64,000 bases of DNA. Origin: Hexactinellida sp. DTS-2022 (lineage: Eukaryota; Porifera; Hexactinellida). Below are positions 13,710-58,898 of the stretch, piece by piece (the stretch's first letter is position 1; the number at the start of each line of letters is the position of its first letter). The stretch is taken from NCBI GenBank assembly GCA_028753945.1, contig JAPNXP010000006.1, forward strand, positions 2,914,001 through 2,978,000. Reading direction: 5' to 3'. The notes beneath the pieces were generated by a model. The model ran no database searches. It saw only the letters and a program-made list of their open reading frames with translations, and had not been told where the DNA came from. The translations under genes and the position numbers were made by a program.

Positions 13710-14546
13710 ATGGCAACACCACTCAATATATCTATTCCCCCACTGACTGAAGGACAGAGAATTGAAGACTGGAAACCCCTCTTCATTGCGGCGACGAGTT
13801 CTCTCGTAGCGAATTCAAGCGAAAACGTAGCGATTCAAATATTACCCTCCCTTGTGCACCGGAGTGAATATGAACAATACATCGTGTTACAAGCTATCAA
13901 AGTAACTACCCTAGAAGACGCCTTCGAGTTGCTATGTGCTAGTCTCGATCAACCAATCGACGAATTCGAAGCAGCGACGCAATTTCATAAGATGCAATGG
14001 GCCAGAGGCATCCGGGTGGAAGTATTTTTTGACCAGCTAAAGAAGCAAGCAAAGCGGACAGGCTATAGCAATCGCTCGGCATGCGTCGCATTAGTGGGAG
14101 AACTTCCTCAAGAAGTTCAACCCCCAATCAAGAGTTGGGTGAAAGGTAAAGAAGAATGCTCAGAAAAGGATCTAAGGGGATTTGTGACTCTTATTCAGGC
14201 TGGGTTACTTCAAAAGAATCTGAGCATAGATCACGGTGCGCGTTTATCTGGTACGATAGGAATTCGCGTTGCTGAGGCGGCGCCTATCAAGCCTCAGAAT
14301 ACTAGTTCCGACGAAGGGGAATTAACAAAAGGCGAAGACGTATGCAGGGTACGCTCTTCACTAGAATCACGTAGAGCTACGGTACACCCTGGTACTAGGT
14401 ACGGGAAACCAAAGTTCAAATGCTTTACTTGTGGGAAAGTTGGACATGGGTGGAGAACCTGTGTGGCAAGGAAATATGACAGTGAGCGGCGCGACAGAGA
14501 ACACAATGAAAGACAGTACGGAACGTACAACTCTATAAGAACACCC
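13710..14546 (+). pseudogene. gag: Gag of the Ty3-type element (interrupted)
   Basis: An open frame of about 279 residues starts at the ATG at 13710, shortly after the LTR. The N-terminal part resembles a retroelement capsid (retrotrans_gag-like, with W-x-x-x-F and a Gln/Trp-rich helix region). It ends in one CCHC zinc knuckle, CFTCGKVGHGWRTC, around residue 240, followed by a basic tail. The frame is cut by the 787-bp insertion at 14547; residues read beyond that point belong to the insertion. Confidence 0.8.
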
Positions 14547-15333
14547 ATGGCCTACTATATATACGGCTACACATGCTGCCGAATCATAAGAAAAAATAAG
14601 AGTCCAGTTTTGTAATTTTATTCTAAGCTAAACTATGCTTCCTATTGGCATAATTTGCATTGTATATGGGGTAATCAACCATTGCGAGTCCAATGGAACC
14701 ACTTTTTAGAATCTGAGATTTGTGGTTAAGGTGTTTAGGCGCCATTTAATGATGACACCACAAATATACTATATATACAATTCGAGTCCTAAATAACTAC
14801 GAGAAAATGAAAATATTTACTAATATACTTTGTATATATTTTTCGAATATATAATGAGAATTAATATAGATAAACCAGTAATTATATACGTTTTATAAAG
14901 AAAATAGTAAGTTTTAACTCGGATACTACTTGTATTTTAGCATGTGGTTGGTTTACAAAATTTTAGAATTTTTAGAATGTCGCCATTTTGTGATTTAGTA
15001 GCCTTTGGGGTATGAAATAAATCCCTATTTTAGAATTCCTGTTATTTAAATTATTAAAAAGTAGGAAGAAAATGAAATTTATGATATTTGAATTTTTTTG
15101 CATTTTAGCATAAATTGCTACCGTCACCATTAAATGGCGCCTAAACACCTTAACCACAAATCTCAGATTCTAAAAAGTGGTTCCATTGGACTCGCAATGG
15201 TTGATTACCCCACACACAATGCAAATTATGCCAATAGGAAGCATAGTTTTGCTTAGAATAAAATTACAAAACTGGACTCTTATTTTTTCTTATGATTCGG
15301 CAGCATGTGTAGCCGTATATATAGTAGGCCATG
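14547..15333. mobile_element. Foldback element with ~210-bp inverted repeats
   Basis: This 787-bp insertion splits gag from pol. The left arm 14547-14756 and right arm 15123-15333 are near-perfect inverses, starting ATGGCCTACTATATATACGG. It is flanked by exact 8-bp duplications GAACACCC (14539-14546 and 15334-15341). The centre is AT-rich and non-coding. The 8-bp duplication fits hAT-like or other 8-bp families, but such long arms are unusual for hAT. Confidence 0.85.
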
Positions 15334-15890
15334 GAACACCCTATAAAGGAGATATAAATGTATATAGCATGGACTATGAACAGAGATGGGATGAAGGTTC
15401 TGCTACTATTTCCGTGGTTAACTCGTGCTCTTTTGGATACCGGAGCAAAAGTCAGTGTCATGGACGAGCACACTATGGAAGGATTGGGGCTTGAAAGAAG
15501 GATGGTACGAACCAACGGGCATGTATTTGGCGTCTGTAGTATCCCAGTACAGGTCTTAGGATATGTAGAAGTCTCTGTTAAAATTGCTAACGAAAGTGCG
15601 AGGACTACACGAATACAGGTACTCAGCGGACAAGATCAGGGTCTCTTACTAGGACGCCAATTCATGTTCCAATACGGCCGTGTAGCATTCGACTGGGGGC
15701 GAGGAACAGTTCGTTTAGGGAAGGCGAAAGTACCGATTTCCAGCAAAGTATTTGGAGGCGATCCGTTGGAAAGGGCTAAAACAGTGAAGCAAGTCTCTGA
15801 GGAAAATGTGTACAGTGAAGGTAAAGGGGTTGTCAATCCCAAACTCACCGGGAACCAAATGAGGAGGAGAATGACGGGACTACTCAACGA
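15334..15890 (+). pseudogene. Retropepsin domain of the Ty3-type element
   Basis: The aspartic protease active site is visible as LLDTGAKVSVMD, followed by a flap-like stretch and LLLGRQF as the C-terminal hydrophobic-Gly motif. Relative to the gag frame the reading frame changes near 15420, which may be a small deletion. The 3' end is cut by the insertion at 15891. Confidence 0.75.
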
Positions 15891-16203
15891 CAGGGGCGTC
15901 AGAAGGGGGGGGACAGGGGGCACGTGCCCCCCTCAAAAATCTCGGTGCCCCCCCCACGGTGCCCCCCTCATCTGTGCATCCCCTCGCCTGTGCCCCCTTC
16001 CCCTGTCCTAATAGATGAAATAACAACACCAATGATATACATGAGTTCAAATGTCATGATACTACTGCTCTTATTCGATGTGAAACTATCAAAAAAGACA
16101 TAAAATCACGTGGGGTTTTATACTACTAAGAATTAGTTTTGGTCTGTGCCCCCCCCTAAATTCTGATTGCCCCCTCCCCGATTACACGCTTCCGACGCCC
16201 CTG
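15891..16203. mobile_element. hAT MITE within pol
   Basis: The 313-bp element has ends CAGGGGCGTCAGAAG and CTTCCGACGCCCCTG. It is flanked by exact 8-bp duplications CTCAACGA (15883-15890 and 16204-16211). C-rich runs (TGCCCCCC) lie just inside both ends. It shares the CAGGGGCGT terminus with 12516-12772. Confidence 0.88.
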
Positions 16204-17540
16204 CTCAACGAATATGAATCTACTTTTGATGATAAACCTGGAAGAACAGAATTGTGTGAACATGGAATTGATACCGGTAGCGCAACCTATGAAAAGCCGC
16301 CCACGAAGACTGCCCCCTAAATGGGAAGAGGAAATAAACCAGCAGTTGGATGAATTACTGTCTCAAAAATTATGCAGGCCCTCAAACTCTCCTTGGGCCA
16401 GTAATGTAGTATTGGTCCCCAAGAAGGATGGAAGGCAACGCTTTGCAATAGACTATCGCAACTAAATGAGATGACAAAAAAGGATGCATACAGTATCCGG
16501 CAAATTCAAACGATTTTGGACAAGGTAGATGGTTATAGATTCTTCTCCGTGATAGATATATCCTCGGCTTACTGGTGTGTCCCGGTGCGAGAGTGCGATA
16601 TTGAAAAGACGGCATTCAATACACCTCGAGGATTGTATGAAATGACCGTTATGCCCTTCGGCCTGGTGAACTCTCAAGCGACATTTCAGAGAATGATGGA
16701 CAACACGCTAAAGGGGTTGAATCATACGGAATCCTATATAGACGATTGTATCATCTGTTCGCGTACCTTTGAGGAACATTTAACAGATCTGCAGGAAGTA
16801 CTGGAACGTTTGAAGCAAGCGAATATACACGTGAAATTCAGAAAATGCCAGCTCTGCTATTCGGAGGTAGAATTCCTCGGACACCTGATCGATGAAAACG
16901 GTAGAATGCCCTTACCTACGGCAATTTCGAAATTGGCAAAGTTCCCAATACCAAGGAGCGTGAAGGAGCTACAGAGATTCCTGGGTTGCCTGAATTTTTA
17001 CAGGAGTTATATTCCAAATCTAGCCGCTATGGCAGAACCCCTATACCAGTTGACGAAGAAAGGAGTCACATGAGAATGGTCTCAGGAAAGACAAGAAGCT
17101 TTCAATTGCCTTAGAGAGAAGTTGACAAAGGAGCCGGTTCTACTCAGTTTTCCAAATTGGGATATAAATTTTGTTGTGGAGGCCGATGCCAGTGTTAGCG
17201 GAGTCGCTGCCGTGCTGTCTCAGATGGACAAATCCAACGGGCAGCTCCGCACGATAGACTACTTCTCCTCTTCCCTAAGTCAAACCCAGAGAAATTACTC
17301 AGCTGGCCAACTCGAGGCTTGGGCGTTAGTTGCAGCCTGTAGAAAGTGGAGTGTTTACTTGAGAGGTTCCGATAAAGTAGAGCTCATCACAGATCACAAC
17401 CCTCTGCGCTGGCTACGTAGCCAACGTGATGGAACTTGAAGAAATATAATTATGAAGTGTCTTATAGACCGGGTACACAGAACATCATGCCGGATTATCT
17501 TAGTCGCATACCTGAACAACCTATTGATTTGCAGGTGCAG
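16204..17540 (+). pseudogene. Reverse transcriptase and RNase H of the Ty3-type element
   Basis: The finger motif SPWASNVVLVPKKDG, the palm motif IDISSAYW, MPFGLVNSQATFQR and the catalytic YIDD are all present, then FLGCLNFYR at the connection. RNase H follows with VEADAS, LEAWAL and TDHNPLRWL. Breaks are a frameshift at about 16462 after the DYR motif, a TGA codon at about 17071 where the family has Trp, and a frameshift or deletion at about 17437. It is not functional. Confidence 0.85.
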
Positions 17541-17564
17541 GATGAAGATTAATTCGAGGAAAAA

Positions 17565-19062
17565 GTGTTCGCTATTTCATCCGACAACGAGCGCATGTCT
17601 GACATGCGAAAGGAACAGGTGGAAGACGAGGTGATAATCCGAGCGGTAAAACAGCTGAGGGATGAAGGTGAAGTAACGACTGGACAACTCAGGGGTAACC
17701 ACAGACCTATCCATACGGGATGGCATGCTATATTTCCACGAACGTCTAGTTATCCCAAAGAAATGCCAGGAGCAGGTGTTAAATGAAGCTCATGCGGCAG
17801 GACATTTCGGACGAGCCCGTACATTGCAATTGTTGAGACGAAGCTTTTTCTGGCGCGGGATGACGCGCGATGTCAAGGCACTCTGCAGGGCCTGTGTAAC
17901 TTGTCAAACAGCTAAACCGTATAACTTACCCAGGCAGCCATTGGAGCCATTTGATATGACTGGCATCGGTCCGGGCGATCTTGTGGCCATGGATATTGCG
18001 ACGCTTCCGTGGTCAGACGAAAGTTACAGATACTTTCTATGTATAGTAGATGTATTTACAAGATATATAGAAGTATTTCCTCTGAAGGATCAGAAGGCGG
18101 GATCCCTCGTGCGAGAATTCGAGAATGGATGGATTTACAGAGGTCACGGGGTACCGAAGGGAATCCTTACAGACCAAGCGCATAATGTGGATGGGACGGA
18201 AATAAGAGCTATATGTGATAAGTTCGGTATCGACAAACGGCACACGTCACCCTATCACCCGCAGGCCGACTTGTTAGCTGAGAGGAGTATTGGCTTGGTT
18301 AAGCAAGTTGCTAGGTGCTTGACCATTGATAGATATTTAGAGAAAGATGCTTGGCCTAGAATAATAACGGAAGTCACCTTTTATTGCAACAATATGGAAA
18401 ATTCTTCGACGAAATACTCTGCTCAGCTTCTGAACACAGGTAGGCAACCTACTTCCCCGATAGATGCTTGGCTCACCGTGTGTAAGAGTCGTAGCCCCGA
18501 GACACACAGTCAGTATATCGAAGGGCTGCTATCGCTGAAGAAAGAGCTTCAGGAGAGAGCAGCTGAGAATGATCAACTGAGTAATCGCCGGATGCAAGAG
18601 CGTTACGACACAGGAACGAGGCGAATGATCATTAGGCCAGGAGATTACATACTTGAAAGGAACGAAAGGTGCGCTGACTCATTGGATCCAAAATTTAATG
18701 GGCCTTTTCCAGTAGTTAATTGCAGGGGTGCAAATGTCAAAATTAACAGAGAGAGGGGGCCTAAGTGGATTCACATAGGGAGGTGCAAGTTGTACAAGAA
18801 GGGAAGTGGTGTAGGTGGAATAGTAGTACCCAGCGGTCAGCAAGGTGCAAACAACAGAAACAACGAGGGAGACATTGTGCAGAACATATCCCAAGGCATT
18901 GAAGGCAGTGAAACTAATACGGACGAATGTACCAATGAGATCGAACCCAATACTGAAGAAATGTACGAAGAATTGGGGAGCTCTACTAATCCAGAACCTT
19001 CACGGAGATATCCCCTACGTGGCAGGAAGCCTAAAAGTTTTAGTGATTATGTCACCTCTTAG
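17565..19062 (+). pseudogene. Integrase of the Ty3-type element (mostly open)
   Basis: After one frame change near 17715, an open frame of about 445 residues runs to 19062. It has the HHCC zinc finger (HAAGH..CRACVTC), the DDE core with Asp in VAMDIATLP, Asp in ILTDQAHN and Glu in LLAERSIG, and a GPF-type C-terminal module (KFNGPFPVVN). A long acidic/Asn-rich tail precedes the stop. This is the best preserved part of the element. Confidence 0.82.
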
Positions 19063-43892: not shown

Positions 43893-46334
43893 ATGGTTGA
43901 AATTTCCATAGAGTTTGATTCAAACAATGAAGATATCAGTATTTTGGAAAAGATGGAATTGGATCGAAAGGATTTCCTCTTTAGGCATTATCTGCACAAA
44001 TCTCTAAACCTACCAACAGATAAAAACAGCACCAGTGATTCAAAGCACAAACCTTCTACTCGTGTATTTGTAGACTATCTGAGACAAGGCACGAGTCCGG
44101 ACGAATATTTCAAATCCATATTCCTTTGTGAGCTGCGCAGATACTATCCACAGATAGGTTTAAATAATATGTTTGTCGATGGTCTGTTCCTGATGACATA
44201 TAACCACGTGTGTACAGAGGTAGGAGAGGAGTCCTGCTTTGAGATTGAATCAATACAAGAGCTGCTGTCAAGGGAAGGATCAATTGAACTATCAGAATAC
44301 CTCTTTCCTCCTGATAACAAGCAAGATTTACCCCTGTATAACACTATTGTGTTTACATTTATGAGTTATATTCACAAGAATCTCGGAGCCCATGGTGTTA
44401 ACAGCGCTCTCTCCCAGTACTATGATACTGAGTCTAATAAGATGCGTATTTCAGGACACAATATGTCTTATCATACAGATCAGTGGAGGAAATATCTTAA
44501 AACAAGACAATGCGACTCTACCGTATCCTACGGTACATTAAGATTCTTATTGAAACTCGTTTGGGTGGATTTATTCCTCAATCATTACTTTATAGTATTT
44601 ATAACAATCCTGTTCATGTTGATTGATGTGTCCTTATACGTATATAGTGGACAAGTAGAAGCAGCTATTATATACTTGATTGCAACGCCTATCATTAACA
44701 ATCCTAATAACTTTACAACAAGTTTCTATACATTTGAGAACCAAAAGCCCCTATTGATAACTTGTACTATTCTTGTTGGTATTAATGTTGCGCTAGTCAT
44801 TACTGATCTGTTGATTAACGCACTGCTAAGCTATCTAGCTACAGTGTATGGTACCAAGCATCGCAAGATTATATTCTCGAAACTACACGGAATGAATGTA
44901 AATCAATGCAGGACATTTTCAAGTGTCAATTTGATAAATCTCTTCGGGGAAGATATAGATTCTCTACAGCAGGTTATTAGCACTGTCCTCGTATTCCTGG
45001 GAAGGTTTATCTTCCTAGTTGCAGGCGGTATCGTAGTCAGTTTAATAATTCACTACTTCTACATCGTGTTTTTCTCATTAACGTATGTTGTTCTATACCT
45101 GCTGGGATCTACTCTCAATTATTTTGTGCGAAATAGAAAAGTTAAGAAGAACAATCTCTTGACAGGATTGACTCACCGTATTAGTGATATTTATGAAGGA
45201 TTTTATGAGAACCTACATTACAATCTCAATCCCTACTGGGAGGAGTCTACGAGGGATAAAATGAAATTCTACTCTTATGGTGTTGTTGTATGGAAGACCT
45301 ATTCAATCACTCGCGTATTTACTTACTTGATGTATGCAGTTAATACTCTATTCACCTCAATTTCCTATCTAATACCAGTGTTCCTTCTGTTATTAACTGA
45401 AGTGAGGTTTGAGCAGGCTCTCGGCGCTTTATTCATATTCTTCAGACTGATACGCACCCCTATAGAACTGCTTAACATGTACGACCTCATTAGCAAGGGA
45501 GCCGGAGCTTATTCTAGACTGGAAGCATTCGAGATGTTAGTTCAAAAAGGAAACTTTAAAAACACTGATACAAGTAATGAACTTTTAAAATGTTTGAGAC
45601 CGAGTATACAGTTAGATAATGTGTACATGTCTCACTTCCCTGAATATGGCATTTGGTCTCTGTTTGATGTAAATCTCAGCATTCCATTTGGACAACGCGT
45701 TGCTATCGTGGGTTCGAGTGGATCTGGGAAATCTAGCATTCTTAATATCATTCTTGGTTTCCTAGAACCTTCTCGTGGTAATGTTATAGTACGAGATAAT
45801 GGTAGCGACGTCTCTCTCAGACAGAAGGGTTTATTTGGGGTAATACTTCAGTTCCCTCATACATTTAACATGTCCGTTAGCGACAATCTTAAAGTGGTTA
45901 ATGTGTCTCTTAGCGAGGAGGATGTATTTGCTACTTGTGATTCGGTGTCGCTACACCAGTGGATAATGTCTCTCCCGCTAGAATACGAGAGTCTCCTACA
46001 AAAACACGGTAAGAACATGAGCGGGGGGCAGAGACAGAGACTCGCTATAGCGCAAGCTATCTTATCTGATGCTAGTGTTATTGTAGCTGATGAGTGCACG
46101 AGTTCTCTAGACCACGAGACTACGCTACAAATACTAGATACTCTGTTCAGTGTTACCGAAGGAAAGACGTTGATATTCGCCACAAATAGGTTTGATAGAC
46201 TAGAGATGTTTGATGTTATTCATGTGGTAGCAGGCGGGAGGGTAGTGGAGTCTGGGTCCTTTTTAGACCTTATGGAAGAGAGGGGCGTGTTTCAATCTAT
46301 GTACTCTCGGGACTGCACAGAGAGTCAAATTTGA
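43893..46334 (+). CDS. ABC half-transporter, single exon, unusual N-terminus
   Basis: This is an open frame of 813 codons from the ATG at 43893. Residues 1 to about 215 are soluble, with no motif I recognise. About 220-500 is a type-IV exporter membrane domain with five or six hydrophobic spans. About 560-810 is the nucleotide-binding domain: Walker A GSSGSGKSS (about 606), Q-loop ILQFP (about 652), signature MSGGQRQR (about 708), Walker B VIVADE (about 728) with the catalytic Glu, and D-loop SSLD. The H-loop position reads FATNR, so the usual His is Asn. The domain order fits an ABCB-like half transporter working as a dimer in a membrane; the substrate is unknown. A long intronless gene is odd beside intron-bearing neighbours. 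Retroposition or old horizontal transfer are possible and untested. Confidence 0.85.
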   Translation: MVEISIEFDSNNEDISILEKMELDRKDFLFRHYLHKSLNLPTDKNSTSDSKHKPSTRVFVDYLRQGTSPDEYFKSIFLCELRRYYPQIGLNNMFVDGLFLMTYNHVCTEVGEESCFEIESIQELLSREGSIELSEYLFPPDNKQDLPLYNTIVFTFMSYIHKNLGAHGVNSALSQYYDTESNKMRISGHNMSYHTDQWRKYLKTRQCDSTVSYGTLRFLLKLVWVDLFLNHYFIVFITILFMLIDVSLYVYSGQVEAAIIYLIATPIINNPNNFTTSFYTFENQKPLLITCTILVGINVALVITDLLINALLSYLATVYGTKHRKIIFSKLHGMNVNQCRTFSSVNLINLFGEDIDSLQQVISTVLVFLGRFIFLVAGGIVVSLIIHYFYIVFFSLTYVVLYLLGSTLNYFVRNRKVKKNNLLTGLTHRISDIYEGFYENLHYNLNPYWEESTRDKMKFYSYGVVVWKTYSITRVFTYLMYAVNTLFTSISYLIPVFLLLLTEVRFEQALGALFIFFRLIRTPIELLNMYDLISKGAGAYSRLEAFEMLVQKGNFKNTDTSNELLKCLRPSIQLDNVYMSHFPEYGIWSLFDVNLSIPFGQRVAIVGSSGSGKSSILNIILGFLEPSRGNVIVRDNGSDVSLRQKGLFGVILQFPHTFNMSVSDNLKVVNVSLSEEDVFATCDSVSLHQWIMSLPLEYESLLQKHGKNMSGGQRQRLAIAQAILSDASVIVADECTSSLDHETTLQILDTLFSVTEGKTLIFATNRFDRLEMFDVIHVVAGGRVVESGSFLDLMEERGVFQSMYSRDCTESQI

Positions 46335-46980: not shown

Positions 46981-49313
46981 ATATTTATCTATATTATTAA
47001 ACTCGATTGTTGTGTGTGTGTTTGTCAGGATTGTATACAGAGAGAGATAGGAGATTAGAACCGAATGTATATTTGAGATAGAAACTGGCTTAACATGTTC
47101 TAATAGGCTGATAGAGGTCGCAAGCCCGGCCAGAGCCCGAAGCCCGTTCGGGCCTGAGTGCGTCGGGCCGGGCAGGGCATCGGGCCTGGGTTGAGGACTT
47201 CGGGCCGGTGTAGCAGCCCAGATTAACCCCCACCCAGTTTAATCCCTGGGATAAATTAGGCTAGCCCAGATTAACCCCCGGGGTTAAACTGGGCTAGCCT
47301 AATTTATACCCCAGAGGTTAAACGAAAGCTAGCCAAGATTATACCCCCAGAGCCTATTTTAACCCCCGGGGGTTAAAATAAGCTAGCCTATTTTAACGGC
47401 CCTAGTTTATCCCCTGTGTAAATAATTACCAATGAAATTATAGTGATTAATATTTCTTCTAAATCAGCTGCTAATACAATAATGAATCTAAGGTACTAAT
47501 GAACAGATAGGAAAAATTGTCTATGCTTCTAGAATAATTGTATATTGATGACTACGTTGAAGTGTTCAGCTAAATTTTCCAGATACAATGCAGTTTCTGT
47601 ATTTTTTGTCAATGTAAAAGATGCGGGATATGTAAGCCATTCCATAGAATCCCCACTCTTTGCATAAACAACGATATCATGTTGAATAAGATTAGCTGTG
47701 GCCAGTATTTCTGCTTCGGTTGCCCAAACACCACTGGAGTCAATGGCACTTTCGCTGACATAATTGGAAACCGTTTGAGAAAGATACTTTCTTAGTGTTT
47801 CACTCAAACTACCACTCATGTGATGGACGACTTTATTACGAGTTATAATATGGCTATCTTCTGAACCTGTTAGGATGTAGCTTATTGATCGGAAATAGCA
47901 ATTACCATCACCTTTAGTTCTGTATATCCGTGCGGGTTTAGATAGGTAGCCAGATTTTCCAAAGTATTGGGTCTTGCATATATTCAAGTTGAAAACTTTG
48001 GCAACTTTTTTTCTAGATTCAGCGGAAATTGGAGAAAACAGTCTGTTTGGGTTGAATTGTTTAACTTCAATTAAAACTAGCTCATCCGTACACTCAAGTT
48101 TCTTAATCTTAGAATGTGATATTGAAGTTCTTCTCTTTTTCTTTGATTTACCATCTTCAGCTATATTATTTGAATCATAAACCTTCAAATTTGCAATATT
48201 ATATATATTTTTTAGTTTCTTTCCTGTGTTGATATTCTCTAGGATTGCACGACCTTTATCTAGCAACTCAATGATTTTATAAGGACCTATCCAGCGTGGT
48301 TCCATTTTCGATCCAATTCGATGTATTCGCTTCCTGTTTTTTATGTACACAGTCGCGCCAGGTGATAACACTTTACTATTAGAATGACGGTTATCAAAGT
48401 TGCGTTTTTGGTGTTTCTGTGCGTTTGTAATATTAAGATCAATTTTGGCGTTGATAGATTCACGCATCACGTCAAGCACCTGTAAAACTTTTGAATTCAC
48501 CTGCTCAATTGATTTTGGAGGTTTAATGGACAAATCAATTGGTAGCTTCGCACTACGACAATACATCGCTTGAAATGGAGTACATTTCGTAGAAGCATGA
48601 ATGCTTGTGTGATAAGCAAATAGTTTTCCTGGGATATAAATATCCCAATCATCACCTCTTTCATTTACCAATTTCGCCAATGCAGATTTCAGGGTACGGT
48701 TATCTCTTTCCCGTTGTCCATTTGTTTCAGGATGATAAGCAGAAGAAATTCGATGCTCAGTCTGCAGAATGTCAAGAAGATAATCAATAACTCCGTTCAC
48801 AAATTCTCTTCCTTGATCACTTATCAGTGTGTCCATACATCCCAATCTGCAAACTATTATGTTAGAAAATCAGCTACAGATTTAGAAGTTTTGTCAGGAA
48901 TGGCAGTAGCTTCTGACCACTTGGAAAAGTGGTCTGAAATAGCTACAATATATTTGTTGCCACGTATAGTCTCCTGTAAGGGCCCAATGAGATCAATTCC
49001 TACAAGACTCCATACTTGAGATGGTACGCGTATCGAAGACAGCGGAGGTCGGTCCATTTTAAGTTTTGGGTTGACTTCAAAACACTTGATGCATTGTTTA
49101 CAATATATTTCAATTTCTTGCTTCATACCTAAAAAATACATTTGGGAATCACATGAAACTTTGTCTGTTACAAATTACAATTCCGAATCTTGAGAAATTT
49201 GACAACACCTATTGCAAAATAAACCCAGCTGTATTAACAACGGTCTAACAATTGATTGTAGGTAAGTTAGCATCGCCTAATAAACGAATTTACGTAAGCT
49301 TTAATATGCCAAC

Positions 49314-49814: not shown

Positions 49815-50050
49815 GTGATGACGGGCTGACAGGAGTGCACTAGAGGGATCCTAGTGTAGGTGGGTTATGCTTAGTACCTGTGGTAGGAGAACGGCATGGC
49901 TCACTGGTAACTAGAACTGGTGTAGACCAGTTGTAGTGTGGTCGAGGGTTACCCTCCTGATGAGTCCTTGTGATAGGACGAAACCACTACCCATCACACG
50001 TTGCTCTCGGTGAGTGTGGGATACATATTACGGTGTCTCATGCTCATCAC
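49815..50050. mobile_element. 236-bp insertion carrying a hammerhead ribozyme
   Basis: The unit starts GTGATGACGGGCTGAC and ends GTCTCATGCTCATCAC, with AGATAT on both sides (49809-49814 and 50051-50056). Removing it together with one AGATAT leaves an open frame at the start of the Ginger transposase, which supports a discrete later insertion. It is GC-richer than its surroundings and non-coding. It may be a small ribozyme-bearing retroelement (retrozyme- or SINE-like). No A-tail or tRNA promoter is certain. Confidence 0.6.
49933..49990 (+). ncRNA. Hammerhead self-cleaving ribozyme
   Basis: The conserved core is complete. CTGATGA is at 49957-49963. Stem II is GTCC/GGAC (49964-49967 with 49976-49979, 8-nt loop). 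GAAA is at 49980-49983. The cleavage triplet GTC is at 49941-49943. Stem I is GAGGG/CCCTC (49944-49948 with 49952-49956, loop TTA). Stem III pairs GTGG with CCAC and, past a 2-nt bulge, GTA with TAC. Cleavage is expected after 49943. The open helix is III (type III topology). The three-base loop on stem I leaves little room for the usual loop-loop contact, so activity may be modest. Confidence 0.85.
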
Positions 50051-52610: not shown

Positions 52611-52632
52611 TATAATGTCATATATTTAAAAA

Positions 52633-52692
52633 TGAGTAGCGCATGCGCTGCATTTGAGTAGCGCATGCGCTGCATTTCAAGTGACGCATGCG
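52633..52692 (+). repeat. Left terminal array of the KDZ element
   Basis: Two full units and one partial unit of GTAGCGCATGCGCTGCATTT with 22-bp spacing. Each core AGCGCATGCGCT is itself palindromic. This is probably the transposase binding region. Confidence 0.85.
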
Positions 52693-52895
52693 TATCTCGC
52701 GATTGTCAGCTGATTGATCATTTGTATAGTAAAAACAAGATAGGCTTGCAATTTTCACCCTATATTAATAGCACATTCCTGATCTCTAGGACTGGAAAAA
52801 GTAAGACGTTTAAATTGAACTTAATTAACATATATTCCAGAATGTTTCGTTTGTTCTTTTCCTTTCTATACCCTTGATTAGAATAGTTATATCAT

Positions 52896-54883
52896 ATGCC
52901 TAAGATACCTAAGATGACAAAGGCCAATGCTCTAATTGTATTGACGAATACTTTGAAACAGTTTCGTTCTGTTACTGGAGAATATGCAGGAGCTGTATTT
53001 TCATGGCATGGCAGGCTTGGTTCTTTGGGTCCCGAAAATTTTCAAAAGTTCATTAAGGAGAACAACGATGAGGTTTCGCGAACTTTGCTGACAAGCAGGA
53101 TAGTTGAATTAGCTAGTTCAAAACCTGCCCGTGACCATGAACTTCTCAAGCTCTTAGATGGAAATATCTATAGCTACAATGTCCAGACACTGAGAAAGCT
53201 TGTTTCAGCAATCACGAAAGAGTCAACTGGTAAGTCAAAGGTTGATTACAGATTTTAAGGGTATTTGATTTGACAGAATCTTGCATTTAGGGAAAGATAT
53301 GTTTTTTTGGAATGATCCCGCTCTTAAACCGCTTTTTTGGCCCAAACGTGTCCCCTTCGAAAAAAGGGCAACTAAGGTTAATTTGCTTAAGATATTGCAG
53401 TCCTATAAGGAATTTACTATGAAAGAGCAAGTATCAATTAGCCCCCGATTTCGATCTCCTAAATCTCCAAGCTCTTCTGAAGTATCGCGAAATACCGACT
53501 ACCGAGACCGTTCTCCTCTTGCTACCACTACTAAAACAACAGAATTATTACACCAAGAATCTGATGTTGATACGAGTAGTGATTCCTTCTTACAAATTTT
53601 TCGGCAACCCGAATTCACTTCAGATAAACTTATTCCAGTTCCTCAATCACCTACTCCTAAATCCAGTCTGGTCTCACTACTCAACATCAAGCCATTGGAT
53701 CCTATTCATATATTTACACCTTCTATTTCTTCAAATGTAAGACGCTTATCTATCTCAGAATTGTCAAATCGGAATACTTTTCTAACAGACACAACCATTA
53801 ACGCATTTTGTGTGAGTTGAATAAATACTAGCCCTTCGCCTCGGTTAAAAAACCAGCATACATTTTGAAATTTCATTAATTTGTTCACCTATTTTTGTAA
53901 ACAACAACAATAAATATTCATAATAGAATTTATTAATGCAAAATTCGAAATCAGCATACTTGTTTACATAGTACATATTCTAACATTTGCAAGCTAGTCC
54001 TATCTCAATTATAAGTGTTGTTTCTAGTCCCCTATCAGTTTAATACTACCCGGGTAAACATATCGACATACCTACCTTGGCTACCCACAACAATCAAGTT
54101 TAATAATACTATAGATTTAGATACATTCGGTATTTACGGTTATCTTAATAATTATTATTCACAACCATACTCTTGTAGACCTTACTGAAGAAAAACTTGC
54201 CGCATATACAGGGACTTCAAGACACTATTCTTTCTCAAGTGAGTTCTTGTTTTTGGGTATTAGAGAAATAATTAAATTTAGAATTAATTAATGTTTAGAA
54301 TCGGCAATTCGTCAAAGGACCTCGTCCTAGTATTCAGATACATCATGATGGTGCACTTCACTGGGTCTGTTCCAGTATTGATGCAGATGGGCACGTAACC
54401 CTTTATGATTCGCTAAATATGGGAAGAACCACTGAAGAATTATCTGTTCAGTTAGCCCTTTTGTATGGGAATGATGCTGAGCTGAAGTTAACTATTGCTT
54501 CTATTCAGCAGCAAAGAGGCGGAGCGGATTGCGGTTTATTTGCAGCTGCAGTCTGCCTAACAATAGCAACTGGAGGCGACCCTACCCAAGTTTGCTGGAA
54601 GCAAGCAAGAATGAGATCTCACCTCTCCGATTGTCTCGACAGCGAAATTTTAACACCCTTTCCTAAGATAGAAAGCATAGTATTGCGATCTAGAATCACA
54701 ACTAATGTAAGGACAGTTTTAAAGATAAAGTTATGGTGTTTATGTCATCTACCCGTCTACGCGTTTCGAAACATGGTTGAATGCCCCAAATGTTTAAAAT
54801 GGTTCCACAAACCCTGTGTAGGGCTTGAAGATACTGACAAAGACATCCCTCACTTCTTTTGTAGTCTATGTAGTGTCGTATAA
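52896..54883 (+). CDS. KDZ-element accessory protein: Ulp1-type protease with PHD finger
   Basis: The exons are 52896-53229, 53291-53811, 54179-54238 and 54299-54883. All introns are GT-AG, and the phases agree to give about 499 residues. Residues 1-111 are helical with no motif I know. About 112-285 starts with a WPKRVPF motif followed by a Ser/Pro-rich linker. About 290-400 is a C48 (Ulp1-like) protease: LPHIQGLQD, His in GALHWV (about 326), Asp in LYDS (about 342) and Cys in RGGADCG (about 383). About 450-495 is a C4HC3 PHD finger (CLCHLP, CPKC, WFHKPC, CSLC). Ulp1 proteases remove SUMO and PHD fingers read histone tails, so it may help the element deal with SUMO-marked chromatin (inference). 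The third intron was invaded by a family A element. Confidence 0.82.
53829..54116 (-). mobile_element. Helitron-like family A copy in an intron of the KDZ element
   Basis: It runs from CTAGCCCTTCGCCTCGG at the left to CAATCAAGTTTAATAATACT at the right, with one TTTTTGTAAACAACAACAA unit inside. It lies wholly within the 53812-54178 intron, so the host gene can still be spliced. Confidence 0.7.
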
Positions 54884-55005
54884 TACAATTTCGCATAATC
54901 AGTTATTGCGAATTTATTACGATATATATACACGTATAGTTAGAAATTACTGATACAATATGGCTACTAATAAAGCTACAATGTTCTAACATGAAGTTCA
55001 AATTA

Positions 55006-58000
55006 TTATTTATTCTCGTTAATCTTAGATATATTTTCTTGATTCAAACAAGCTAGAAAGTATCTTGCAGTAAAGAATACATTATCGATACGCATGTATG
55101 CGATCTGTGTTGATATCCTTCTTAGTGAAGAAAATAATTGTTCGCAAATTTGGGAGTTTATTCTTCTCATCTCGTCCGTATGAATGGACCTCATAGAATA
55201 GGAGGGATTGCACTTGTGGTTTGTAGAATGGAACCGATCGATGAGAAAAGTTGTCTTGCGAAATAATTTGGGATCTCTAAAATATTAAAATACTAATTAC
55301 TATCTAATATTTCCGACGACTTTATTTTAAATAATATCAAATGAGTTACATGTACTTACCTTTTCATACATGTTCTATGTAAGTTGCAAGCATTATCGTA
55401 GATTATCACTTTAGGCTGTACTTTGAATATTGTCAATAACAAATTATAAATTCCAATTGTAGATTCGTGTTGTCTGAGAATTTGGAAACCATAGCAAATC
55501 CTGTGTTTACAAGCGATTGCTATTAGTCCGGGGGAAAACCTTTTGTGCGTAGGAAATTGTTTGAGACACTTTTCAGCTGAATCTTCTTCCCGATTTTCGT
55601 ATACTGGAATCCTGTAGAAGATAGATGTCAAAAATAGAATGTGTAAAATTTGGCTATATTTGGGGATAATCCAGTTTAATTTAAAACAAACTCAAGCTAA
55701 CTCTCAGAATCTACAACTCAATATTTTTAAAACGAATCTACTCACCTATGCTATCTCAGGGTGAATAGTTCCCAAAATACTTGTGTATTTTGTAATTTTC
55801 AATACGTATATAAAACTCTAAATATTACCACTACGAAATTAACAAATTTGAACTTACTTATAGCTTGTTGTAAAAGTTGGGAAATAGTTGAAATAGTTGT
55901 TGCTTTCTGGAAAAAATTCAACTAATTTTCTTGATGTTTTGCTAAATAGACTTTCAATTTGTGCCAAGATGCTTTGCAATAGCGTGGACACTGTCGGGTG
56001 TAAAGTGATGAGACCTGTTTTATCTTTTGTAGGTTGGATAGAATTGAATAATATATCCAACGTATACATTTTTTGGTAAATTGAAATTAAGGAATCTTCA
56101 CTAACTGATTTTCCATGGGCAATGAGAGCTATGTCTTTTCGCTCATTCGGTCCCAGTATAGAGAATTGGAATACTCCGGAAATAGGATCTGTATGACAGA
56201 GGAGTTCTATCGCTTTCTTAACATTTCTATGATCTCCACTTATAGTCACTAAATTTTCAGTCCTACTGGAACTAAATAAAATATAGTTGGCCATTTGTTG
56301 GTTAAGAGAATTCAATAGGTCATTGAAAATATCTTTTGCCAAGCCTTCAGAACAATATTTAAGGAGCTGTTTTCTAATAGAAATGTCCGGGATAAATACA
56401 CGATCGGAAAAAGGGATCATGGGGTAGAGCTGATCCTGGTCGAAATTTGCAGCCACTTCTGGAACCGCTTTCATTGTTCCCATCGCTATGCCATCTAAAA
56501 TTATCACTTCTGGTTGATCTTTACACTTGGGACATGTGTAGTGCTCGGTATAATCTATGTCAACCATTCTCAGATATGCATTCCATGCTTGATAGAATAT
56601 GTGATAATGGAATGTATTAGTTCTACCCATTCTGATGAGCTTCCTGTTCTTTGCACTAAATAATAAAAATCAAATAGATCGTGTTTAACTCAAGTACATA
56701 AGTGAATTCACTAAACATACCTCAAGTAGCCATACAGAGTATTTCGTGACCTAGTCATCAACTCACTGTAGTCGTATAGTAAGCTGTAATGAACGAAGTA
56801 TCTGTTGTTGATGTTTAATAGTAAACTGCTATGTCCTTCGAATACTGCCAGGCAATTGCAAGGGCCATTGCATATTGAACTGTAAACTAGATAAATAATC
56901 ACATTATTCACTAATAAATCATTGAGTTACGAAGTACAAAGTTGTTTATTCTAAAGTACATTTTCTGATGCGAAATTAGCTCTGAAAAAATCCCTCCTAA
57001 ATAGATGTAGCACACGAAACTTTCCTATATAAACGGGTATAACTAATTACCTTATTATTATAAATATATGTACCTTTGTGTTCTTTTAATTCATTGACAT
57101 CATTTTCCATATAGATAATTATTCCGACCTTTTCCAATTTTAGTTGCTCTTCTTCATTGAATTTGTAACCATAGTCACAATAATTCTTTTCAGGATAGAT
57201 ATTTACAGGCAAGTTGATGCCATGTCGAAGTTGGTTGTTGTAAATTGATATTTGGTTCTCATCTAGATTGAATGGTATTGGAATGGTTGATGTAGTTTTG
57301 TATTCAATTTTATTCTGGTTTTTGATTGATGTATCAGATCCAATTTTATCGAGAATAATATGGAGTCTGAAGTGCTGCTTACATTTTGAAGGACAAGAGC
57401 TACAAAACCAACGGTCATTATTCAATTGGAAATTGTGAAAAGTACCATCTGCCAACAAGAATATATCCTTAGCATTAGGAAGATAATAAATTATGTTTTC
57501 CAGGTTGTTTCCTTCACAAACTTGCAAGGAATCATTTCTTGAACACAGTTCAAATGCTTGATAGTGAAGACAAGTTCCACTAGAACAATGGGTGCATATA
57601 TGGGCGTTTTTTTCAATTAAGATTCTCCTCTTGTTTAGTACAACGGTTCCTATAAATGAAGAATTGTTGTTATTATTATTAAGGTCTAATGACTTGAGAG
57701 AGAAATTTTGCATCAAAAATTGAAATGCCATTTTATTTACCTTGTTGTGAGTGACCAAAATCAGCAATTACCACATATTTACTATCCTCTAACTGATATA
57801 CACGAGACTTTAATATCAACAGTCTGACATATTGATCAATTGTAGGTATTTCATTAATTTCTAATTCTGAGAAGCACTGACCTATGGGAAAACGTCATAT
57901 AAAAATAACAAATATCCTTGAATTGGTAAATTATTACCTGAGCCTGACCAAGTTGATATATCTGATTCTAACAGTGTAAATTGTTCACCTTCTGATAGAC

Positions 58001-58112
58001 ATACTTTGTCGATGTCAAATGTCAGGAAGCTGATATCTTCTTTATCAGATATTTTTCGTTTTTTTGGGAACATATTAACCGACTCAGTTGAAGAAGTTAG
58101 TTTTTCTGCCAT
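55006..58112 (-). CDS. KDZ/Zisupton transposase (seven exons, intact frame)
   Basis: The exons are 58112-57938, 57881-57741, 57649-57074, 56886-56721, 56655-55858, 55611-55360 and 55276-55006. Every junction is GT-AG, and phases add up to 2,379 bp (792 residues) with no stop. The N-terminal part holds Cys/His clusters (CTHCSSGTCLHY about 124, FCSSCPSKCKQH about 187) like the SWIM-type zinc-binding region of the family. CPKCKDQPEVIILDGIAMG (Asp about 406) is the typical KDZ signature with the likely first catalytic Asp. CKHRICYGF and IIYDNACNL give the second Asp (about 690). FLIDRFHSTNHKC and ICEQLFSSLR give the likely Glu (about 747). It should cut and paste the element in the nucleus. An intact frame suggests recent activity. 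Confidence 0.9.
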
Positions 58113-58382
58113 TTCCTCAGATAATGATATAACTAATGGTATATCTCTTTAATTTAGAGCATATATGCGTAAATTAACTAACTACTTGCATTCCAAAGGT
58201 AACTTATCAAAATGTGGTGAGCAAGCTTCACTAAATTACATTCCAATCAACGTATTGGTTAACTATGTTTAATTATTAGGAAATACACTTAGATATAATA
58301 TGGCTTATCTCATAGCATTACTATGTAATAATAGTATTACTATGTAGCTACTATGTAGTTATAGCAGCGCATGGGATATTAT

Positions 58383-58478
58383 TGAAATGCAGCGCATGCG
58401 CCACTTTAAATGCAGCGCATGCGCCACTTTAAATGCAGCGCATGCGCTACTCAAATGCAGCGCATGCGCTACTCATTT
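58383..58478 (-). repeat. Right terminal array of the KDZ element
   Basis: Four full units and one partial unit of the inverted 22-bp motif (AAATGCAGCGCATGCGCTAC). Two carry a GCCACTTT variant, which recurs as AAGTGACGC in the left array. Confidence 0.85.
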
Positions 58479-58544
58479 TTAAATAGCTCTATAATGTAGG
58501 CTTTTACTGATATAACTATAGATTTATCAGGAGTAAAAATTTCC

Positions 58545-58898
58545 GCTGTGCGGGTCGAGCCTTAAAGTGATGGGGGAATAGAAACCGCATTTATATATGA
58601 GATATAAACTAACTTCCAAATGTTATAATGGGTAAACAAATGTTATAATAGGTAAATGTTGAACCCGAATTTCGCGTTTATAAATTTGTAATATGAATAT
58701 TTGTTGTTGTTGTTTACACAAATAGGTAAACAAATTAATAAAAATTCAAAATCAACCTAGAAGCTAGCTTTCAACGCTTATTATAAGTATATAACTATGT
58801 AATCAATTGTTTAGTGAGGAGTAAGGCCGCGTAGTGGTCGTTAACTTTAGGTGCGTAGCACCGATCTGTCGCAAAGCGACCGAGACCGAAGGGCTCGT
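58545..58898 (-). mobile_element. Helitron-like family A copy
   Basis: The tandem unit (TTGTTGTTGTTTACACAAAT, AGCTTTCAACGC) is followed by GGTGCGTAGCACCGATCTGTC and CGAGACCGAAGGGCTCGT, the family end. The other end lies next to the KDZ element. Its missing 5' part may be 51880-51985, meaning the KDZ element (and more) inserted near or within this copy. Confidence 0.65.

Follow-up and report, generated by a model that had tools for sequence, protein, structure and literature searches.

A two-gene KDZ transposon

The window analysed here, a 64-kb stretch (35% GC) of contig JAPNXP010000006.1 from the hexactinellid sponge Hexactinellida sp. DTS-2022, contains a 5,871-bp DNA transposon of the KDZ superfamily that carries two convergent genes, a transposase on the minus strand and an accessory gene on the plus strand. 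An initial annotation, made from the letters alone, had described this locus as an apparently intact KDZ/Zisupton transposon with convergent transposase and Ulp1-PHD genes, bounded by inverted ends and exact 8-bp duplications. Both accessory domains named there are supported, but the annotation missed an N-terminal region that profile comparisons relate to NRF1, a transcription factor of animals; the DNA word read by NRF1 recurs in the ends of the element. The boundaries are as follows.

52619..58489, unstranded: KDZ-superfamily transposon, entire, 5,871 bp
52611..52618, unstranded: left target-site duplication, TATAATGT, present once in the joined-flank query described below and matched across by empty sites
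58490..58497, unstranded: right target-site duplication, TATAATGT
52619..52692, plus strand: left terminal inverted repeat, CATATATTTAAAAATG followed by 22-bp units (repeat search)
58392..58489, minus strand: right terminal inverted repeat, reading GAGCTATTTAAAAATG on the minus strand and then 22- to 23-bp units, with four exact NRF1 words

As had been claimed, the duplications are identical on both sides and the ends are inverted repeats, with 52623-52692 and 58416-58485 being 97% complementary over 70 nt in a repeat search. The outermost 4 nt are unlike, CATA at the accessory side and GAGC at the transposase side, and the shared TATTTAAAAATG comes next. The left end CATATATT and the right end GAG[C/A/G]TATT are common to L035, L036, L037 and L038, the four other subfamilies with both ends placed. 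Exact 8-bp duplications flank the window copy, L009, L035 and L038; the duplication agrees at 7 of 8 positions in L010, measures 7 bp in L037 and is imperfect in L036. None was recognisable around the older copies L011 and L012/L013, and no pair of ends was found for L039. The combination of 8-bp duplications with terminal inverted repeats is the criterion that separates Zisupton from Kyakuja, and the window element has both. A separate repeat lies in the right flank (58678-58752) and, in the opposite orientation, within accessory intron 2 (53862-53936); the interval 58561-58799 also matches several loci.

The transposase gene

57938..58112, minus strand: transposase exon 1
57741..57881, minus strand: transposase exon 2
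57074..57649, minus strand: transposase exon 3, frameshifted in the copy on contig C16
56721..56886, minus strand: transposase exon 4, part of a CxC4-like cysteine cluster
55858..56655, minus strand: transposase exon 5, C-P-x-C..I-L-D-G, with the first catalytic Asp by motif
55360..55611, minus strand: transposase exon 6, Y-D-N-A-C, with the second catalytic Asp by motif
55006..55276, minus strand: transposase exon 7, containing D-R-F-H, C-E-Q with the catalytic Glu by motif, and the stop codon

Joined, the seven exons encode 792 residues in an open frame with GT-AG at all internal borders, and the six introns fall at residues 59, 106, 298, 353, 619 and 703. The proposed structure of seven transposase and four accessory exons, all with GT-AG borders and open frames, was confirmed in the sequence, and most intron positions recur in sister subfamilies when these are compared by splice-aware alignment (37-61% protein identity). 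L036 has all six transposase introns in the same place and L035 has five, plus one at residue 55. Within the aligned stretch, L037 shares five introns and has an extra one at 200, and L038 shares both; L039 shares five, one of them offset by a residue.

The spliced window protein scores over the curated cut-off for KDZ (PF18758; 37.7 versus 26.6 bits, E = 2.3e-9), lone exons remain below it, and the domain is found at E ≤ 0.1 in 4/4 aligned transposases. D407, D691 and E748 are invariant in the same four proteins, and the motifs D-G, Y-D-N-A-C and C-E-Q are present; from these motifs we take the three residues to be catalytic. The assignment to KDZ is upheld by this domain match and by the motifs. 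Residues 253-380 match CxC4 (PF18717) at 1.2e-4, below the cut-off. The CxC7 cysteine cluster of fish Zisupton was not found in the transposase in a Pfam search at E ≤ 0.1, which returned only KDZ and the sub-cut-off CxC4, and for this reason we file the element as KDZ and not as a fish-type Zisupton.

The accessory gene

52896..53229, plus strand: accessory exon 1, dimerisation part of the NRF1-like region together with its first DNA-reading helix; R100 aligns with NRF1 R206
53291..53811, plus strand: accessory exon 2, remainder of the NRF1-like DNA-binding part, which runs to about 53406, then a linker that evolves fast; a 6-nt difference from the C16 copy adjoins 53360
54179..54238, plus strand: accessory exon 3, where the Ulp1 protease begins
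54299..54883, plus strand: accessory exon 4, Ulp1/C48 (H326, D342, Q377, C383) and C-terminal PHD finger at about 54725-54874

The four exons join into a 499-residue protein with an open frame and GT-AG internal borders. Its introns, at residues 112, 285 and 305 (phases 1, 0 and 0), are kept in 4/4 of L035 to L038; additional introns are predicted at 165 in L035 and at 63 and 185 in L038, and L039 agrees less well with the window pattern. The convergent arrangement proposed for this locus proved general. Pairing the best 78 of 151 Ulp1-exon matches with 99 of 143 KDZ exon-5 matches, we found a KDZ exon-5 match within 6 kb of 56 of the 78, and all 56 pairs are convergent, so that the gene order appears fixed. 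The other 22 have no such partner, and three of these (C15:1276640, C9:962192 and C14:943288) lie near a KDZ-family match from another search. Over both genes the proportion of synonymous differences (pS) is 0.73-0.86, near saturation, and that of nonsynonymous differences (pN) is 0.23-0.45 (the synonymous rate dS was not computable in 7 of 10 comparisons), a pattern indicating that both proteins are under constraint.

The His-Asp-Gln-Cys set of the protease part (H326, D342, Q377 and C383) is invariant in 5/5 accessory proteins. Pfam at E ≤ 0.1 detects Peptidase_C48 in four of the five (best 3.6e-5) and PHD in all five. In the window protein C48 stays below the cut-off, and the PHD call of the initial annotation holds on exon 4 (PF00628, 25 versus 24 bits) and not on the whole protein (22.6 bits, sub-cut-off). 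For a model of exon 4 with a predicted local distance difference test (pLDDT) score of 69.5, Foldseek gave Ulp1 as the top match (6.6e-4); PHD fingers bound to histone H3 trimethylated at lysine 4 (H3K4me3) ranked lower and were not significant. The best match of a five-protein profile in the PDB was a PHF2/PHF8-type PHD finger (1.1e-10). In the putative aromatic cage of this C4HC3 finger, the Trp preceding F/Y-H and the Met are kept, and one position is shifted in the alignment.

Four Ulp1-PHD copies of equal score (C1:1385177, C11:13619447, C11:14135548 and C17:3344085) have no KDZ exon-5 match within 6 kb among the hits used and are possibly accessory-only elements. Ulp1-like matches also occur in long open frames at C13:3115938 (787 residues), C3:829302 (487) and C4:1188936 (406), which belong to other Ulp1-bearing genes or transposons.

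Copies, empty sites and recent movement

The initial annotation would have been refuted if no second copy with the same ends, or no empty insertion site, existed; both were found. The second full copy, L009 on contig C16, is 99.76% identical to the window element over 5,892 aligned bases and is flanked by its own exact duplication, ATAATATT, different from the TATAATGT of the window. Sixteen alignment columns differ, one of which is an edge artefact of how the window copy was cut, and these two are the only near-identical copies found within the window subfamily. For the empty sites, the left flank, a single copy of the duplication and the right flank were joined into a 500-base query; 40 of 2,651 candidates were scored, which makes the counts a lower bound. 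The query had at least 57 matches, two of them the window's own flanks. Among the 57 listed, 25 cross the insertion junction (query start ≤ 56 and end ≥ 275) at 80-99% identity, the best of those listed being C8:1739982-1740299 (99%, query 1-318). The element is inserted within an interspersed repeat. Since empty sites are matched across the junction, the insertion was precise, with 8 bp duplicated.

Recent mobility is better evidenced by the L035 and L037 subfamilies than by that of the window. They comprise eight and seven copies, respectively, with the query counted, at 99-100% identity over about 1.5 kb. Each of the two window-type copies bears a lesion. Accessory exon 2 of the window copy lacks 6 nt, or two residues, that are present in the C16 copy and in the older copies L010 and L011; the missing residues fall at the position of the DNA-reading Asn of NRF1, in the DNA-reading loop. 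The C16 copy has a frameshift in transposase exon 3. The wording "apparently intact" fits the reading frames of the window element, which are open; as a statement of function it is doubtful, with the accessory short of two residues and the sister transposase frameshifted. Two damaged pieces of the element also occur as an inverted pair at L014 (C2:1092400-1095900).

An NRF1-like region at the N terminus of the accessory

The NRF1 homodimer binds GCGCATGCGC, and each of its DNA-binding domains reads TGCGC through R206, N242 and R244 (available passages of PMC10810270). Pfam detects the Nrf1_DNA-bind domain (PF10491) at E ≤ 0.1 in 5/5 accessory proteins, with a best value of 1.9e-7. A PDB search with a profile of the five proteins retrieved NRF1 as 8k4l over residues 12-140 (3.1e-9) and as 8k3d over query positions 84-140, the DNA-reading part (1.9e-8), and profile-profile comparison with host and human NRF1 gave 97.5% over 148 collinear columns. 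On these comparisons, the accessory N terminus is judged homologous to the dimerisation and DNA-binding region of NRF1.

A genome search for the NRF1 family (E ≤ 1) returned 61 matches. One is host NRF1 (C1:12370499-12371152; 3.0e-50), where the residues aligned with R206, N242 and R244 are R, N and K; of the remaining 60, 18 score above the curated cut-off. Fifty of the 60 lie less than 4 kb upstream of an Ulp1-PHD match on the same strand (37 upstream of the best 78 such matches and 13 upstream of 72 weaker ones); ten do not. The residue aligned with R206 is Arg in 10/10 sequences of a chosen exon-1 alignment and in 27 of the 32 element rows of a wider one. Most rows have N, C or S at position 242, and K, Y, S or A stands at position 244. 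The pair is N..K in L009, L010, L011, L035 and host NRF1, N..Y in L036, and C..S in L037, L038, L048-L051, L059 and L061. A strict code linking these two residues to the palindromes described below was considered and rejected, as the C..S type occurs with four palindromes; the pattern is suggestive and would not amount to a code.

A model of exon 1, of low confidence (pLDDT 61), has the order helix-strand-strand-helix followed by a last helix with R100, the same order as described for the dimerisation part of NRF1. A structure search with this model gave no significant NRF1 match, and MADS domains of SRF and MEF2 ranked first (E ≥ 0.56). Because the NRF1 dimer is reported to be SRF-like (available passages of PMC10810270), we count this ranking as mild support. 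When viral contigs were scanned with the accessory alignment, 51 pattern matches came up, but no relative.

NRF1 words and related palindromes in the ends

52639..52648, plus strand: NRF1 word GCGCATGCGC
52661..52670, plus strand: NRF1 word GCGCATGCGC
58392..58401, plus strand: NRF1 word GCGCATGCGC
58415..58424, plus strand: NRF1 word GCGCATGCGC
58438..58447, plus strand: NRF1 word GCGCATGCGC
58460..58469, plus strand: NRF1 word GCGCATGCGC

These six are the only occurrences of GCGCATGCGC in the window, where 0.02 would be expected from shuffles, and all lie inside the terminal repeats of the element. L035 contains the same word 13 times. Units are spaced 21-23 bp apart in the window element, L009 and L035-L038, the six whose arrays are clear, and in the window element, L035 and L036 the predicted genes start about 160-280 bp inside the arrays. 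Other members carry palindromes of their own: GCACATGTGC in L036, CCGCATGCGG in L037 and, with 40 counted, in L064, TTCGCATGCGAA in L061 and L050, GGCGCTAGCGCC in L059, L062 and L048, and GAGCATGCTC in L058. The eight half-sites compared (window, L035, L036, L037, L061, L059, L053 and L058) are 0-1 substitutions from GCGCA, a range into which 16 of the 1,024 possible 5-mers fall; they are related by descent and therefore do not constitute an independent test.

A model for the accessory protein and its alternatives

The anatomy of the element, its homologies, its recent movement and precise insertion, the constraint on its proteins and the agreement between its ends and the NRF1 word can be read from the sequence. 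From these we infer a two-protein KDZ transposon in which a dimer of the NRF1-like/Ulp1/PHD accessory most likely binds the palindromes of its own ends in the service of the transposase. The genome has two exact matches to KIWFQNRR-type DNA, which read as Msx-like and NK-like homeoboxes, and is accordingly taken to be that of an animal. The minus-strand gene encodes the DDE-type KDZ transposase of a cut-and-paste animal transposon, and the convergent gene a three-part accessory made of an NRF1-type region, an Ulp1-type cysteine protease and a PHD finger. According to this model, the accessory dimer would coat the palindromes that recur at 21-23-bp intervals in both ends (GCGCATGCGC in the window element), where it would mark the ends for the transposase or bring them together, and it would probably also regulate the two genes, which start just inside the arrays. 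The Ulp1 part may act as a SUMO protease on the transposase or on nearby chromatin, and the PHD finger may engage histone H3 tails; binding to the ends, the activities of protease and PHD finger, and their targets are the predicted parts of the model.

Several observations weigh against this model. Taken alone, the window protein falls under the Nrf1 cut-off (0.0078; 16.4 versus 23.5 bits), the dimerisation part by itself is not significant (hhalign, 7.7%), and exon 1 by itself retrieved neither Nrf1 from Pfam nor NRF1 from the PDB. The residue aligned to N242 is missing from the window copy, and five of 32 rows (L043, L053, L054, L055 and L057), damaged or truncated there, have another residue or none at the R206 position. 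The residues at 242 and 244 vary between subfamilies and do not correspond one-to-one with the palindrome. The odd palindrome of L038, TTCGACAGTCGAA, breaks the half-site rule, and the half-site count leaves out recurring palindromes of different types upstream of L054 (CCGGCCGG and CGGATCCG), L060 (TGCATGCA), L071 (GGTTAACC) and L052 (AT-rich). Upstream units of this kind were seen by eye in only 15 of 29 NRF1-like loci, the remaining 14 having no units, units beyond the reach of the locus, or other palindromes. Finally, host NRF1 could bind the same word GCGCATGCGC.

The last point leads to the alternative that survives best, although we consider it improbable: the GCGCATGCGC arrays would be promoters for host NRF1, hijacked for expression, and the NRF1-like region of the accessory would do something else. 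In favour of it, the genome contains a clear host NRF1, whose base-reading residues are R, N and K, and arrays stand upstream of both element gene starts. However, five other subfamilies have different palindromes (GCACATGTGC, CCGCATGCGG, TTCGCATGCGAA, GGCGCTAGCGCC and TTCGACAGTCGAA) and each keeps its own NRF1-like protein, which weakens this explanation because a host factor is not expected to track changing palindromes. Where both ends of an element are placed, arrays also occur at each of them, within the inverted repeats.

Marginally less probable still is an ordinary KDZ transposon in which the cysteine cluster of the transposase reads the ends, the accessory N terminus is a generic dimerisation module and the match to the NRF1 word is coincidental. 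The CxC4-like cluster, albeit sub-cut-off at 1.2e-4, belongs to a class suggested to recognise DNA or chromatin proteins (available passages of PMC12062965). Yet the significant homology of the accessory lies in the DNA-reading part (8k3d, 1.9e-8, query 84-140), 27 of 32 rows retain the R206 position and an exact 10-bp NRF1 word is repeated, whereas this explanation leans on the dimerisation part, which is the weaker match. That the two copies are a fossil pair spread by segmental duplication or assembly error, as could be argued from a window subfamily of only two near-identical copies, each with a lesion, is highly improbable, since it requires flanks shared beyond the duplications and is contradicted by the different flanks, different 8-bp duplications, clean empty sites and the seven to eight near-identical copies in other subfamilies.

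Relation to known systems

Neither KDZ transposons nor 8-bp duplications are new, and Ulp1 or Ulp1-PHD has been described in transposons before. The window element resembles Zisupton, Dileera and Kyakuja in its KDZ domain above the Pfam cut-off, its many exons and its terminal inverted repeats. Duplications of 8 bp are described for Zisupton and one Dileera family, and the Kyakuja families described have 7-bp duplications without inverted repeats (available passages of PMC12730594). Nematode Zisupton proteins have 1166 and 1367 residues, with no duplications detected (available passages of PMC9297572); in comparison, the window transposase has 792 residues, and the protease, PHD and NRF1-like parts reside in a separate, convergent gene. 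The initial annotation had suggested that complete copies with Ulp1 and a PHD finger supplied by a separate gene may be little described in animals. The pairing of Ulp1 with a PHD finger in an animal transposon is not in itself new, given that Ginger1-9_HM of Hydra, likewise an animal DNA transposon, has both, fused to its transposase (available passages of PMC2836005). Ginger1 differs in its Gypsy-integrase-like transposase with fused domains, and no NRF1-like region is described in those passages.

The accessory resembles NRF1, erect wing and P3A2 in its dimerisation and DNA-binding parts, in the DNA word and in the key Arg, which is mostly conserved. It differs from NRF1 in continuing into Ulp1 and PHD, and an intron interrupts its NRF1-like domain at the residue aligned with G218, whereas host NRF1 lies in one open frame of 510 residues. 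Among the open-licence papers listed in searches of limited length, none described an NRF1-type domain in a transposon or linked NRF1 to KDZ/Zisupton, NRF1 and Zisupton not having been searched as a lone pair. In ProtoRAG, the transposase-type gene RAG1L is convergent with the accessory gene RAG2L (PMC7204232). The likeness of the window element to RAG1L/RAG2L is one of layout only, a convergent transposase and accessory, and no relationship in sequence was found. RAG2 is a kelch protein with an H3K4me3-reading PHD finger; neither a RAG1-type transposase nor a kelch RAG2 was found in the window proteins by Pfam at E ≤ 0.1, which returned KDZ/CxC4 for one and PHD, NRF1-like and C48 for the other.

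More tentatively, it is conceivable that NRF1 has its origin in a KDZ transposon's end-binding accessory, or that transposons captured an early NRF1, that the NRF1 word is a fossil of a terminal repeat, and that KDZ represents a second, independent RAG1/RAG2-like system of convergent transposase and PHD accessory. NRF1 is a master regulator of nuclear genes for mitochondria, and the present data connect this well-studied animal transcription factor, along with the exact word that it reads, to a family of transposons with recent mobility. Should the accessory indeed bind the ends, one could test directly whether NRF1 arose by domestication from transposons or was captured by them. The subfamilies within one genome, each with its own palindrome and NRF1-like domain, would offer a natural experiment in the joint change of a protein and its DNA word. 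If true, the model would add a second case of a convergent transposase and PHD accessory, and would suggest a route by which a transposon counters SUMO-dependent silencing at its own ends.

Other features of the window

Elsewhere in the window, pieces of a Gypsy-like polyprotein were recognised by eye on the plus strand (13710-19062), and an uninterrupted open reading frame of 813 residues on the same strand (43893-46334) has an ABC transporter ATPase domain (4.8e-25). An integrase-like open reading frame, identified by eye on the minus strand (47529-48869), has a C-terminal OTU cysteine protease domain (PF02338, 7.5e-11), and this deubiquitinase-type domain is apparently carried by another transposon of the window. 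A type III hammerhead ribozyme lies at 49936-49989 on the plus strand, with 57.1 bits against a gathering threshold of 48.5.

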